From: an uncultured delta proteobacterium
GTDB taxonomy: Bacteria; Desulfobacterota; Desulfovibrionia; Desulfovibrionales; Desulfovibrionaceae
DNA: 64,000 nt
NCBI GenBank assembly: GCA_903835685.1
Contig: CAILNX010000052.1
Span: 1 to 64,000, forward strand
Reading direction: 5' to 3'
In this document: piece after piece, positions 19,764 through 25,082 of the stretch
Layout of the letters: each line of letters starts with the position of its first letter
Numbering within the stretch: the first letter of the stretch is position 1
Notes under the pieces: model-generated
The model's database searches: none
The model's input: only the letters and a program-made list of their open reading frames with translations
Told to the model about the DNA's origin: nothing
Translations under genes and position numbers: made by a program

Positions 19764-20198
19764 ATGCTCAAGGTCACTGATCTGATGACCGCCGAGGTCT
19801 TCACCCTGGGGGCTGAGGACACCCTGCAAAGCGCCCGTCAGCTCATGCTCCTGCAGCGCATCCGGCACGTGCCCATCGTGGAGGCCAGCGGGGACTTCAT
19901 CGGCCTGCTCACCCACCGGGATCTCCTGTCCGCCACCATTTCCAAGCTGGCCGAGGTCGATCCCGAGACCCAGGAGGAGATCGACTCGGGCATCCCCATC
20001 AAGGAGATCATGCGCACGGACGTGGTGGTGGTCGGCTCCAACCTGCCCTTAAGGGACGCGGCCAGCATCCTTTTGAACCACAAATACGGCTGCCTGCCCG
20101 TGGTGGACGCCGGAAGACTGGTGGGGATCATCACCGAGGCGGATTTCCTGAAACTGACCATCAGCCTCATGGACGCCCTGGAGCCTTCGGACATGTAG
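19764..20198 (+). CDS. Tandem CBS-domain protein
   Basis: 144 residues, essentially two CBS modules (about 1-60 and 78-138) of the form VTDLMT...HVPIVEASGDFIGLLTHRDL and IKEIMRT...CLPVVDAGRLVGIITEADFL. Such proteins bind adenine nucleotides and act as energy sensors. The target is unknown. AAAGGAGG is 5 bases before the ATG. A weak promoter candidate TTGACA-N17-AAAACT lies at 19709-19737. A second CBS protein of similar layout is at 31796. Confidence 0.88.
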   Translation: MLKVTDLMTAEVFTLGAEDTLQSARQLMLLQRIRHVPIVEASGDFIGLLTHRDLLSATISKLAEVDPETQEEIDSGIPIKEIMRTDVVVVGSNLPLRDAASILLNHKYGCLPVVDAGRLVGIITEADFLKLTISLMDALEPSDM

Positions 20199-20210
20199 CC
20201 GGAGGCCCTC

Positions 20211-20681
20211 CTAGAGCTGTTCGTCCAGAAATTTTCGTATCTGCTTTCTGGCCTCTTCCACAAACTGCGGGAAGACGGCCTTGCACGGCTCGGTCATTTC
20301 CATGGCCCAATCCGTGTAGGACTTCGGCTCCATGCCCAGCACCCGCATCTGGGGCCGCTTGCCCAGCATGTCGGCCATCTCCAGGGAGTCGAGCAAGTCG
20401 ATGTCGTGCAACGAGAGGCGCTGCTTCTCGTTCTGCACCAGTTGGGACTCCTCGAACAGGGAGATGGTCCCGGGCTCCTTCTTGGAATGGACCACGTCCA
20501 GGACCAAGAGGGAGTCGTAGCCCTCCAGGATGTGGAACATGTCCTGGGTGGCCGTGCCCCCATCCACGAAATGGACGTTCTCGGGCCACTCCTCCTTCAT
20601 CAGTTCCTGCACGGCCCAGACGCCCACGCCGTCGTCCATGAGCAGGATATTGCCCACTCCCAAGACCAAAAGCTTTTTCAT
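20211..20681 (-). CDS. hysD: Hydrogenase maturation endopeptidase
   Basis: A 156-residue HybD/HyaD-family protease that trims the C-terminus of the hydrogenase large subunit once the metal site is loaded. GVGNILLMDDGVGVWAV holds the first nickel ligand position (Asp16 or 17), VLDVV the second (about 62), and LSLHDIDLLD supplies the histidine (about 92). It lies downstream of hysA on the same strand. The predicted substrate tail is the 18 residues after the UxxCxxH motif of HysA. A terminator lies between the two genes. The symbol is by context. Confidence 0.9.
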   Translation of the reverse strand: MKKLLVLGVGNILLMDDGVGVWAVQELMKEEWPENVHFVDGGTATQDMFHILEGYDSLLVLDVVHSKKEPGTISLFEESQLVQNEKQRLSLHDIDLLDSLEMADMLGKRPQMRVLGMEPKSYTDWAMEMTEPCKAVFPQFVEEARKQIRKFLDEQL

Positions 20682-20752
20682 TCCTGCTCCTGAAAAAAAA
20701 GGCCGCCGGGCAGAGCCAGGCTTTGATAGTGCGGCCAGATGGCCTGGATTCC

Positions 20753-20788
20753 AAAAAAAGGAGGGACCGGAACCCCGGCCCCCCCTCT
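20753..20788 (-). terminator. Intrinsic terminator between hysA and the protease gene
   Basis: On the minus strand, GAGGGGGGGCCGG and CCGGTCCCTCC form a stem with a short GGTT loop, followed by seven T (20753-20759). It lies after the true hysA stop at 20813, so protease expression probably depends on read-through or its own promoter. Confidence 0.75.
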
Positions 20789-20812
20789 TTCAGTATCACT
20801 GCCTTGCGGCTC

Positions 20813-22363
20813 TTAGCAACCAGCGCTCAGGTGGGAAACGTTGGTCTCACCGGTCTCGGCGTGCAACACGTGCACGGCGCAGCCCAGTCACGGGTCAAAG
20901 GCGCGGATGGTCCGCGCCACGTTGACGGGGTTGTTGACGTCCGGGACCAGGACCCCGATGAGGGCCTGCTCCACGGGTCCGCGCTGACCCATGTCGTCGC
21001 GGGGGTTGCAGTTCCAGATGGTGGCGGCCACGATCTGGTAGTTGGCCACCTTCTTGTCCTTGATCTGGATGTAGTGCAACAGCGCGCCGCGGGCGGCCTC
21101 GGTCAGGCCCAGGCCTTCGGCCTCCATGGGGATCTCACAGGGCACAAAGGTCTCCGCGCCCGGGGTGACCTTGGTCAGCCATTTGTCGATGGCCTGGGCC
21201 ACCATGTAGGCTTCCTCGGCCCGGGCCACGTGACGGCCCATGATAGAGAAGGCCAGATCTTTCAGATCGCGGAACTTCACGGCGGTAAGGCCGAAAAGGT
21301 CCTTGAGCTGCTTCTTGCCGACAGGAGAGAGCTCGGGATTCTCGATCCACATGCGCGCGGCCGGACCGGCTTCCACGGGCTTGTCCATGTAGCGGGGGGA
21401 CTTCACGAAGCTGTAGGCGCCCGGCTTGGACACGTCGGTCTTGGTCTTGCCCTTGCTGGGGTGCAGGCCGGTGCAGGAATCGTCGTACCAGGAGTACTTC
21501 ACGTATTCCTTGATCTTGGCCGCGTCCATGGGCATGTCCTTGCCCTCAATGTACACGCCCGGCTTGAGCAGGTAGGTCTTGTTGTCATCGTCCTGGGGGA
21601 ACACGCCAAAGGCGATGCAGTTCTTGTAGCCCACGCCCTGGGTCAGCAGGTCCTTGTACACGCTGCCAACCAGGTACACGGTGGGAACGTAGGTCTCTTC
21701 AATGAACTTTTTGACCTGGAGGAAGCGGGTCTTGTAGGCCTCGATCTTCTCCTTGGTCGGGATTTCCGTGGTGCCGCCCACGACCTGGCCGGAGACGTGC
21801 GGCATCTTGCCGCCGAACAGGGCCACCATTTCGTGGCAGATGCGGCGCATTTCCAGGGCGTCGACGTACTGGCCCACAGCCGCCTTGTTGATGGCCGGGG
21901 GCAGGCGCAGGTCGGGCTTGTCGTACTTGGGGGCGAACGGGGCGACCTTGCCCACCACCGCAGCCGCGTCCACGTAGTCCAGGGCGGCCAGGTGATAGAA
22001 GTGCAGGATATGGGACTGGAGGTAATTGGCGCCCAGAATCAGGTTGCGGGTGATGCGGCCGTTGGTGGTCAGCTTCACCTTGAAGGCGTCGTCCAGAGCC
22101 CGGCAGGAAGCGGTGGAGTGGGCCGTGGGGCACACGCCGCAGATGCGCTGGGTGATCTGGGCGGCGTCCCGGGGGTCGCGGCCGGTGAGGATGTTCTCAA
22201 AACCGCGGAACATGCCGCCGGTGACCTTGGCGTCAACGACCTTGCCGTTCTCGACCGTCACTTCGGCCTTCAAGTGGCCCTCGATCCTGGTGACCGGATC
22301 GATGGCAATATGGATTTTTTCGCCGTGAGCCCCAGCGGCGGCTTTCGGTGCACATCCGGACAT
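20813..22363 (-). CDS. hysA: [NiFeSe] hydrogenase large subunit, selenocysteine-containing
   Basis: Periplasmic H2 oxidation/production catalytic subunit. The reading frame is open to a UGA at 20888-20890 (codon 492) and then continues in frame for 24 more codons to TAA at 20813. The residues around the UGA read FDP-U-LGCAVHV, exactly the DPUxxCxxH nickel-ligand motif of [NiFeSe] enzymes. The first ligand pair is RICGVC (Cys75, Cys78). Total length is 516 residues including Sec492. Maturation should cut after His498, releasing the 18-residue tail. A hairpin suited to a bacterial SECIS follows the UGA. AAAGGAG precedes the ATG. hysB is 29 bases upstream in the same operon. Standard callers end this gene at 20888 and lose both active-site ligands. 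Confidence 0.95.
20860..20876 (-). promoter_or_regulatory. Candidate bacterial SECIS hairpin in hysA
   Basis: Beginning 11 bases after the UGA, CGTGCA pairs perfectly with TGCACG across the five-base loop CGTGT. This puts the loop 17 bases after the UGA and includes the GU expected for SelB recognition. It lies inside the coding sequence, as bacterial SECIS elements do. Confidence 0.7.
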
Positions 22364-22392
22364 ATTTTATACTCCTTTCAGGTAGTTAGCCG

Positions 22393-23313
22393 TTAGCCCG
22401 CGACGTAGAACGGGGACTTGCCATCCGGGAAGTCCGGCTCAACGCAGCCGATGCACACGGAGTTCTCCACGCACCAGTTCACGCCGCCGTTCCACTTGCG
22501 GGTGGGGCAGTCGGAATTGGTGCTGGGACCCTTGCAGCCCAAGTCGTAGCGGCAGCCGTCCTTCTTGGTGAAGGTCGGGGACATGGTGCCCGCGTCGAAG
22601 TACTTGAGATAGGGGCAGTTGTCGTGGATGTTCTTGCCGTAGAAGGGGGTGGGGCGACCGACGCTGTCCAGGACCTTCACCGTGGCCTCCAGGCCGTTCT
22701 CAATGGCGAAGACCAGGGAGCCGATCATCCAGTCCGGATGCGGCGGGCAGCCGGGGACGTTCACCACCGGGGTCTTGATCCCGTACTTGTCGAAGAAGCC
22801 CTTGACGCTCATGGCGCCGGTCACGCTGCCCTTGGAGGCGGGAATGCCACCGTAGGCCGCGCAGGTGCCGAGCGACACGACCGCAGCAGCCATGGAGCCG
22901 AGTTCAGCCGTGGTCTCGGCCATGGTGTACTCGTGTCCTTCGACCTCGCCGATCACGCAGTAGCGGCCGGCCTCGGCCAGGGGCACCGCGCCCTCGACCA
23001 GAAGGATGAACTGGCCTTTCTTCTCCTTGGCCACCTTGTACAGGTGCTTGAAGGCCACTTCGCCTTCGCCAGCCATGATCGTGGGCTGATAGCCCAGATT
23101 GATGACCTTCAAGAGAACGTCGGCGATTTTAGGGTTGACGCTGTTCAGAATGGATACCGAGCACCCGGTGCAGCCCTGGCCCTGAAGCCAGAGGACATTG
23201 GGCGCGGCCTTTTCCAGGGCGTGCAGAACCGCGGGGTTGTACATTTGGGAAATCCCAAAACCCGCGACCGTGCCTGTGCACAGTTTCACAAAATCACGTC
23301 TGCTTAAACTCAT
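22393..23313 (-). CDS. hysB: [NiFeSe] hydrogenase small subunit
   Basis: A 306-residue electron-transfer subunit carrying three iron-sulfur clusters. The N-terminus has the twin-arginine signal SRRDFVK (residues 4-10) and a hydrophobic stretch, so the folded heterodimer is exported by Tat. The proximal cluster motif is GQGCTGCSVS (about 46-55), with GTCAAYGG and GCPPHPDW following. The C-terminal Cys-rich part (CRYDLGCKG, CPTRKWN, CVENSVCIGC) binds the other clusters. AAGGAGG precedes the ATG. Electron partners (cytochrome c3 type) are not in this window. Confidence 0.96.
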   Translation of the reverse strand: MSLSRRDFVKLCTGTVAGFGISQMYNPAVLHALEKAAPNVLWLQGQGCTGCSVSILNSVNPKIADVLLKVINLGYQPTIMAGEGEVAFKHLYKVAKEKKGQFILLVEGAVPLAEAGRYCVIGEVEGHEYTMAETTAELGSMAAAVVSLGTCAAYGGIPASKGSVTGAMSVKGFFDKYGIKTPVVNVPGCPPHPDWMIGSLVFAIENGLEATVKVLDSVGRPTPFYGKNIHDNCPYLKYFDAGTMSPTFTKKDGCRYDLGCKGPSTNSDCPTRKWNGGVNWCVENSVCIGCVEPDFPDGKSPFYVAG

Positions 23314-23394
23314 CCCTGCCTCCTTGCATTATGGCCGATGAATTGGAACAACCTATGGCAAGACGCCTTTCCCTTAGAGATAGCCGATGCCTGC

Positions 23395-23423
23395 CTGTAA
23401 CCCATCACTGGATTCTATGTCAA
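23395..23423 (-). promoter_or_regulatory. Sigma70-like promoter of the hys operon
   Basis: On the minus strand TTGACA (23423-23418), a 17-base spacer, and TTACAG (23400-23395). The leader to hysB is about 75 bases. CATGTTTCAATTT (plus strand, 23427-23439) abuts the -35. Confidence 0.6.
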
Positions 23424-23444
23424 TAGCATGTTTCAATTTAGATC

Positions 23445-23454
23445 ACTGATCAGT
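23445..23454. promoter_or_regulatory. Palindrome upstream of the hys promoter
   Basis: Perfect 10-base palindrome ACTGATCAGT about 22 bases upstream of the -35, with a further overlapping GATC repeat. A possible operator; the regulator is unknown. Confidence 0.35.
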
Positions 23455-23777
23455 AGCCCGAATATTCCGACCATGAATTGAAAATCATGGCCTCTTTTGT
23501 GCCACGCTCTTCATTCTGGTGTCACCATCCAGCCCTCTTCCACAGGGTCCGTGCAGGGGAAAGAAGCGAACCGAGGCCCGGACCAAGATTGGCCTCGATC
23601 TGGGCCTTGATCCAGCTCCAAAAGCAGGCGGGATTATTTGACCATTGATTTCAGGATATTAAAAAATATTTACAAAAAGTATAAATCTGTTAGGCTGATG
23701 CCTGTGTGAAACGTGGCTGGCTGGGACGGTAAAAATCAGCCCAATGGCCCGCCAGAACAGGAACGGTTTTAAGCCCC

Positions 23778-25082
23778 ATGAGCAAGACCATCGCCATCCT
23801 CCTCCCGGTTTGCCTGCTGCTTGGCCTGGTGAGCGCAGGACTCTATTTCATGTTCAAGGACACTGCCCCGCCCGAGGTGGTGCTTGTCCCGGCCCAGGGG
23901 CCGGTGAACAGTCATGTGAAATTCGCCCTCACGGCCAGGGACCCGGATTCCGGGGTGCGGGAGATCACGGTCACGGCGGTCCAGGGCGCCAAGTCCATTC
24001 CCCTGGTGGCCAAGACCTACACCCCGCCCGTGGCCAGCCTGGAGGAGAGCTTCTCCCTGAAGGAAGGCTTTCGTGAAGGCAATTTCACCTTACGAGTGGC
24101 GGTGCGGGACGCATCCTATTACATGTTCGGCCGGGGCTCGACCACCACTCTGGAACCAGGCTACGTCCTGGACAACCACCCTCCCCGGGTGGCCATCTCC
24201 AGCACGGCGCACAACATCAAGCGCGGCGGCACGGGATGCGTGGCCTACACCGTGACCAAAAAGACCTCCCTGTCCGGGGTCTTTGTGGGCGAGAATTTCT
24301 TCCCGGGCTTTGAACAGGAGGACGGCCTGTACGTCTGCCTGTTCGCCTTCCCTGACTGGCTCCAGCCCAAGGACTTTCGGGTCAAGCTCGTGGCCCGGGA
24401 CCTGGCCGGAAACGAGGACGCCAAGTACGTCCAGATGCACATCCTGCCCCGCAATTTCCTGGCCGACAAAGTGAACATCCCGGAGAGCTTCCTGGCGCAG
24501 AAGTTCTCTGAATTCAAGCCTTTTTATCCCGAGGAAACAGACCCCTTAAAGCTTTACTTGAGGGTAAATACCGAGTTGCGGGTGCAAAACGCCCAGACCC
24601 TGCTCAAGGTCGGCAACCGCACCTCCCCCACTCCCCTGTGGTCCGGGGGCTTCATGCGTCTCCCGAATTCGGCCCAGCGCTCGGGCTTCGGAGACCAGCG
24701 CACCTACCTGTACAATGGAGAAAAGATAGACTTCCAGGTGCATCAGGGCGTGGACCTGGCCAGCCTGGAGCGCGCGCCGGTTCCGGCCGCCAATGTCGGG
24801 GACGTGGTCTACGCGGGCTTTCTGGGCATCTACGGAAACGCGGTGGTCATCGACCATGGCCTAGGCCTGCAGACCATCTATTCGCACATGAGCCAGATCG
24901 ACGTGCGCGAGGGTGAGCGGCTGGCCAAGGGACAGATCATCGGCCGCACCGGGACCACGGGCCTGGCCGGGGGCGACCACCTGCACTTCGGCGTGCTCAT
25001 CTCCGGGATTCCGGTCACCCCCCTGGAATGGTGGGACCCGCACTGGATCGAGGACAACGTCCTGGCCAAGTACAAGAAATAG
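23778..25082 (+). CDS. M23-family metallopeptidase, membrane-anchored
   Basis: A 434-residue envelope protein. It has an N-terminal TM anchor (about 5-25) and two beta-rich Ig-like regions (about 30-240). The C-terminal LytM/peptidase_M23 domain has the zinc ligands HQGVD (about 322-326) and HLHFG (about 402-406), both present, so it is probably an active peptidoglycan endopeptidase rather than an EnvC-like degenerate form. ATG 23778 gives a classic anchor. Single gene, closed by a bidirectional terminator shared with cheV. Confidence 0.9.
   Translation: MSKTIAILLPVCLLLGLVSAGLYFMFKDTAPPEVVLVPAQGPVNSHVKFALTARDPDSGVREITVTAVQGAKSIPLVAKTYTPPVASLEESFSLKEGFREGNFTLRVAVRDASYYMFGRGSTTTLEPGYVLDNHPPRVAISSTAHNIKRGGTGCVAYTVTKKTSLSGVFVGENFFPGFEQEDGLYVCLFAFPDWLQPKDFRVKLVARDLAGNEDAKYVQMHILPRNFLADKVNIPESFLAQKFSEFKPFYPEETDPLKLYLRVNTELRVQNAQTLLKVGNRTSPTPLWSGGFMRLPNSAQRSGFGDQRTYLYNGEKIDFQVHQGVDLASLERAPVPAANVGDVVYAGFLGIYGNAVVIDHGLGLQTIYSHMSQIDVREGERLAKGQIIGRTGTTGLAGGDHLHFGVLISGIPVTPLEWWDPHWIEDNVLAKYKK

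Follow-up and report, generated by a model that had tools for sequence, protein, structure and literature searches.

The DNA analysed here (the window) is a stretch of 64,000 nucleotides from the genome of an uncultured delta proteobacterium. It carries a gene for a hydrogenase large subunit, hysA, that seems to end at a UGA codon within its nickel-binding motif. The question raised by this locus is whether the UGA terminates translation or is decoded as selenocysteine (Sec), as an earlier note on the same DNA had proposed.

Under translation table 11, the open reading frame on the minus strand (22363-20888) encodes 491 amino acids and ends ...RAFDP-TGA. When the TGA is instead translated as Sec, the protein has 516 residues, consisting of the 491 codons, U492, and a further 24 codons that encode LGCAVHVLHAETGETNVSHLSAGC and are followed by TAA. 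The earlier note had claimed that the frame continues past the UGA and closes with TAA 24 codons later; this is exactly what is found, and the coordinates it gave span precisely the TAA to the TGA. Its placement of the UGA at the first cysteine position of the hydrogenase motif DPCxxCxxH is also correct: the TGA (20890-20888) is codon 492 and stands where the C-terminal nickel-binding motif, DPUxxCxxH, has its first ligand (ULGC). The N-terminal CxxC ligand pair lies in RICGVCPTAH (C75 and C78), and the predicted ligand pairs of the protein are C75/C78 and U492/C495. From the comparisons presented below, the apparent early stop is almost certainly a Sec codon. Coordinates of the features are listed in Table 1.

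Table 1. Features of the hysBA-hysD locus, in window coordinates
Feature	Position	Strand	Evidence
hysB, [NiFeSe] hydrogenase small subunit, Tat-type signal, NWCV (Cys)	22393..23313	minus	NF045520, TIGR01409, 2wpn_A alignment
hysA, [NiFeSe] hydrogenase large subunit	20813..22363 (stop included)	minus	translation, NF045518, PF00374, PDB matches
UGA codon 492, almost certainly selenocysteine	20888..20890	minus	TGA in 60/60 family matches reaching the codon
Putative SECIS hairpin, stem +12..+17 / +23..+28, loop CGUGU +18..+22 after UGA	20860..20876	minus	comparison, PMC13188914 rules
Codons 499-516, predicted C-terminal propeptide VLHAETGETNVSHLSAGC, predicted cut after H498	20816..20869	minus	translation, PDB chain ends
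TAA, true hysA stop	20813..20815	minus	translation
hysD, NiFeSe hydrogenase maturation protease	20211..20681	minus	NF045519, PF01750

The read-through protein scores 867.5 bits (cut-off 780) against NF045518, the NCBIfam model named "NiFeSe hydrogenase large subunit HysA", and also matches Pfam PF00374. In the PDB, it is most similar to the [NiFeSe] hydrogenases 5jsu, 5jsh, 4kl8, 1cc1 and 2wpn (E < 1e-220), and the first Cys-type [NiFe] enzyme among the matches appears at E 5.9e-108. The adjacent genes are of NiFeSe type as well. HysB scores 524.2 bits against NF045520 (cut-off 470) and 20.5 bits against TIGR01409 for the Tat-type signal (cut-off 16.7), and it aligns end to end with 2wpn_A, both proteins having NWCV; the Cys in this motif, in place of Pro, we take to be a mark of the medial cluster. 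HysD scores 248.4 bits against NF045519 (cut-off 190) and also matches PF01750. The HysA-specific score, the PDB matches and the neighbours together uphold the earlier assignment to the [NiFeSe] enzymes. The accompanying claim, that conventional annotation would report a truncated enzyme, holds in that the table-11 call is 491 amino acids long, but the problem has long been recognised and a dedicated model, NF045518, exists. Reading through the UGA corrects a gene call that would give a 491-residue enzyme without two of its nickel ligands, and it marks the organism as a selenium user. It leaves the picture of the HysA family unchanged, and this HysA is an ordinary member of a well-known enzyme type.

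The gap between hysA and hysD (20682-20812, minus strand) contains a terminator-like GC hairpin followed by a run of seven T (20776-20763). Another GC-rich stretch, with a run of eight T at its end, lies immediately 5' of the hysD ribosome-binding site. Expression of hysD may be lower, arising by read-through or from a start of its own. Terminator-like sites in 20150-23800 number five, versus 3.4 expected, and T runs of at least six after hysA are present in only some relatives.

Decoding of UGA as Sec implies that the cell has SelA, SelB, SelC and SelD; the earlier note drew this implication and proposed a genome search for these genes, the absence of which would have refuted its reading. In the organism's own assembly (a draft of 3.94 Mb in 65 contigs), all four are found above curated cut-offs: selB (368 bits, cut-off 242) and selA (608 bits, cut-off 268) on contig C9, selD (347 bits, cut-off 125) on contig C43, and tRNA-Sec (82.7 bits, gathering score 47; anticodon TCA according to ARAGORN) on contig C37. 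The selD gene (L010 1387-2496, on the organism's own contig C43) has an in-frame TGA in its GUAAK motif (...KAAGUAAK...) and itself looks like a selenoprotein gene. Among four genes above the cut-off for FdhA, the formate dehydrogenase alpha subunit, three have one in-frame TGA each, somewhere within the gene. The in-frame TGA codons of selD and these three FdhA genes suggest that the organism probably decodes UGA as Sec in several of its genes. SelD and FdhA, together with the alpha subunit of a hydrogenase (there called FrhA), are among the Desulfovibrio selenoproteins named in PMC1794560.

A search of 288 genomes of the family for HysA at E 1e-100 yielded 65 matches in 63 genomes. Sixty of these span codon 492, and the other five (in G023, G202, G018 and G287, and one of two in G173) end before it. 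All 60 spanning matches (L053-L082 and L088-L117, L092 included) have TGA at this codon. A search of the genome_contigs set found 32 loci, comprising 14 with TGA, 15 with TGC or TGT (L034-L043, L045-L048 and L051) and three without a recognisable motif. Identity to the query HysA over the best segment is 49-69% for the TGA loci and 31-47% for the Cys loci. Rows for the comparison of Sec and Cys forms were chosen by the motif DP[*/C]xxCxxH; L044, L049 and L050, in which the motif is unrecognisable, were left out of both groups. The 73 Sec rows are non-independent, as they include many close relatives and two loci that lie within others (L105 within L030, L108 within L032).

L092, on contig 13 of G150, was left out of the 73 rows because of a second in-frame TGA. 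The extra codon lies 42 codons 5' of the Sec codon and aligns with a Trp of the window protein (ATL*NCNP vs ATIWNCNP); it probably represents a sequencing error or a broken copy.

At E 1e-60, selA is present in 229 of the 288 genomes of the family, among them 56 of the 63 that have HysA. In the remaining seven (G008, G010, G014, G019, G020, G194 and G287), selA was not found even at E 0.001. Sec-free read-through, which these genomes might suggest, was rejected because all seven have SelB and tRNA-Sec above the cut-off and because the assemblies are incomplete and fragmented (58-93% complete, in 160 to 820 contigs). With its recurrence in genus g5 set aside, we read the missing selA as assembly gaps. 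In that genus, none of the three genomes (G008, G009 and G010), all incomplete, has selA; G008 and G010 (79 and 83% complete) carry a UGA-type hysA, SelB and tRNA-Sec, and G009 has no HysA among the matches at E 1e-100.

These data bear on other explanations of the UGA. Were it a genuine stop, the gene would specify a truncated, inactive protein of 491 residues or would be a pseudogene, as the table-11 reading with its end at 491 amino acids would have it. We consider this very improbable, for the genome has the Sec machinery, the synonymous sites past the UGA are the most constrained of the gene (see below), and the codons 3' of the UGA are conserved as protein in relatives. Conservation of the motif itself is non-independent, since DP*xxCxxH was used to select the rows, but the rest of the tail is independent of that choice. 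It is scarcely credible that the enzyme is an ordinary [NiFe] hydrogenase in whose gene TGC or TGT was turned into TGA by a fault of sequencing or assembly. The assembly is indeed a draft of 65 contigs, and more distant homologues usually have Cys at this position (15 of the 29 motif-bearing genome_contigs loci). However, the 60 family matches with TGA come from other genomes, and both HysB, with NWCV as in 2wpn, and HysD belong to NiFeSe-specific types.

SelB and release factor compete at UGA codons. It is therefore conceivable that UGA492 is mostly decoded as Sec, but that termination at residue 491 under selenium shortage serves regulation. This general competition is what favours such a role, with nothing direct to add to it, whereas the truncated product would be without two nickel ligands and without the HysD cleavage site. 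We judge regulation of this kind unlikely.

Insertion of Sec at UGA492 would depend on a SECIS element. The earlier note described a SECIS-like hairpin 11 to 27 bases after the UGA; the hairpin is present, although its position is +12 to +28. The Fig. 2 legend in PMC13188914 gives four rules for bacterial SECIS elements: an apical loop of 3-9 nt with an upper stem of 4-16 bp; a G at loop position 1 or 2, as a rule with G or U after it; a distance of 16-37 nt from the UGA to the apical loop; and a minimum free energy (MFE) at or below -7.5 kcal/mol. The hysA hairpin agrees with the rules of that legend in its size (a 5-nt loop and a 6-bp stem), its loop sequence (CGUGU, in which G is second and U follows), its spacing (17 nt, the loop starting at +18) and its MFE (-8.7 kcal/mol for 33 nt and -18.8 for 57 nt). 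The loop bases G19 and U20 are invariant in all 33 distinct rows. The MFE fold of the 57-nt segment contains the identical 6-bp stem, and that of the 33-nt segment contains five of the six pairs. An Rfam scan of the window gave no family at the gathering score.

Folding energy was considered as proof of a SECIS and rejected, because the MFE is no lower than that of shuffled sequences (z -0.09 for 57 nt and +1.09 for 33 nt; not significant). Synonymous redraws of the window gene, which has 63% GC, with the gene's own codon usage form all six pairs in 38% of cases. Across 44 Sec genes, which are related so that the tests are non-independent, all six pairs are kept in 43, and for 22 of these 43 (38-56% GC) they are expected in at most 5% of redraws. 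The six pairs are intact in 71 of the 73 Sec rows, with L028 and L116 losing one each, and in none of the 15 Cys-codon rows, with L034 keeping five.

Covariation was assessed in the 33 distinct rows, in which 99.0% of the cells are paired; the shuffled mean is 97.1%, and 1 of 500 shuffles reaches the observed value. Pair +15/+25 is G-C in 31 rows; of the other two, L076 has C-G and L082 has U-A. L076 belongs to genus g25, and the U-A form is found in six rows of genus g23, of which the other rows have G-C, so the two changes look independent, as inferred without a tree. Two-sided change is restricted to this one pair, a count reached in 46 of 500 shuffles. Sliding the structure by -3 or +2 columns likewise gives one two-sided pair, though with only 42% and 49% of the cells paired.

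Sec genes were aligned by codon in a non-redundant set of 31, drawn from the 44; 236 codons are testable, and their mean excess synonymous identity is 0.059 (sd 0.109). When windows of seven codons are ranked by synonymous conservation, each of the top nine (0.27 to 0.48) overlaps the hairpin, where A496, V497 and V499 have excess synonymous identities of 0.61-0.66. The strongest synonymous conservation within hysA is thus that of the hairpin stretch. Judged by comparison, the hairpin looks selected. The window gene alone is insufficient to establish it; at the level of sequence, the family comparison does suffice.

A sequence-and-structure model of the HysA SECIS was built from 33 rows, the window locus among them. 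In the organism's own genome it scores 57.9 bits at hysA, and no other scored place (150 of 4974 first-look candidates) exceeds 15.1 bits. On the 15 Cys-type loci it scores at most 9.1 bits, and at most 6.6 at the homologous place. At the three FdhA loci and selD, the model has no match at E 10, as would be expected if SECIS elements are dissimilar from one gene to another (PMC13188914). Its use as a finder of other selenoproteins was rejected, as it scores strongly in the genome only at hysA.

From the reading frame, the family membership, the Sec machinery genes, and the conserved UGA and hairpin, all of which are observed, we propose an explanation in which Sec insertion, metal ligation, cleavage and export are modelled on studied homologues. 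The hysBA-hysD locus would encode a periplasmic [NiFeSe] hydrogenase and its protease. SelB carrying Sec-tRNA(Sec) would bind the hairpin, the stem of which starts 12 nt 3' of UGA492; Sec would be inserted at that codon, and translation would continue to the TAA. Nickel would be held by Sec492, C75, C78 and C495. HysD would then cleave after H498 and remove the 18-residue tail, and the folded dimer would be exported through the Tat-type signal on HysB. We give this explanation as a whole, with Sec492 decoded, a probability of roughly 98%.

The closest comparisons are with enzymes of determined structure. PDB entries 2wpn, 3ze6 and 5jsu, which we take to be the periplasmic [NiFeSe] hydrogenase of Desulfovibrio vulgaris Hildenborough, match this locus over the full length of both subunits. 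The alignments with 5jsu and 5jsh have FDP-x-LGCAVHVLHAE at the active site, and the 2wpn small subunit shares NWCV with HysB. The D. vulgaris enzyme differs in sequence divergence; the aligned part stops at residue 509, and therefore the very end of the tail differs. Entries 1cc1 and 4kl8, presumably the Desulfomicrobium baculatum [NiFeSe] hydrogenase, belong to the same family, have a deposited chain that ends at the residue aligned with H498, and differ, as far as compared, in sequence divergence only. The Cys-type [NiFe] hydrogenases of the 15 loci share the DPCxxCxxH motif, but they have TGC or TGT for TGA and no complete hairpin.

Sec is placed at position 493 of the D. baculatum large subunit in PMC10362691. 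The same finding as ours was made in other species in 2016: PMC4730141 describes HysA entries of sulfate reducers that were truncated at an in-frame opal codon and re-read to a second stop, with a SECIS directly after the opal codon and sel genes scattered in the genome. Read-through HysA is thus already known in other sulfate reducers, and the window adds one more member. Hydrogenases of the [NiFeSe] type are noted for their high production of H2 and for being less sensitive to oxygen (PMC10779653).

The predicted maturation of HysA bears on the position of the hairpin. In PDB entries 1cc1, 2wpn and 4kl8, the last residue of the deposited chain is the one that aligns with 498, in agreement with a HysD cut after H498; the chains of 5jsu and 5jsh reach the equivalent of 509 and beyond, and the tail is present in both. 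The SECIS loop starts with the last base of the H498 codon, and the 5' arm encodes mature protein. Propeptide codons 499-516 hold the loop minus its first base and the whole 3' arm. The two-sided changes alter H501 of the tail (to D in L076 and N in L082), and the changes at V497 are synonymous only. Sec-type tails vary in length from 4 to 25 residues (72 of 73 Sec rows; L075 runs off its contig), and the shortest, VLHA with 4 residues (L030/L105 and L106), end at the codon that holds the last stem base. Three of the 15 Cys-type rows have no tail at all.

The hairpin comparisons agree with a SECIS that has its 3' half within a propeptide predicted to be discarded. They point weakly to a further, doubtful possibility, namely that the C-terminal propeptide of HysA has been retained partly as an RNA scaffold. 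A limited literature search found no earlier report of overlap between a SECIS and a propeptide. In L035, L039 and L040, which are Cys-type, the His of DPCxxCxxH is the very last residue of the large subunit; therefore, no C-terminal maturation cut should be needed.

A plasmid search with the query returned 40 records, none covering 80% of it; the five records listed cover 11% of the query at 69-70% identity. HysA starts with MSGC (22352-22363), which places Cys4 near the N-terminus. The D. vulgaris counterpart of Cys4 is said to be lipidated, though the large subunit itself lacks a signal peptide. The MSGC start is missing in many other Sec-type relatives and is common to L063, L082 and others.
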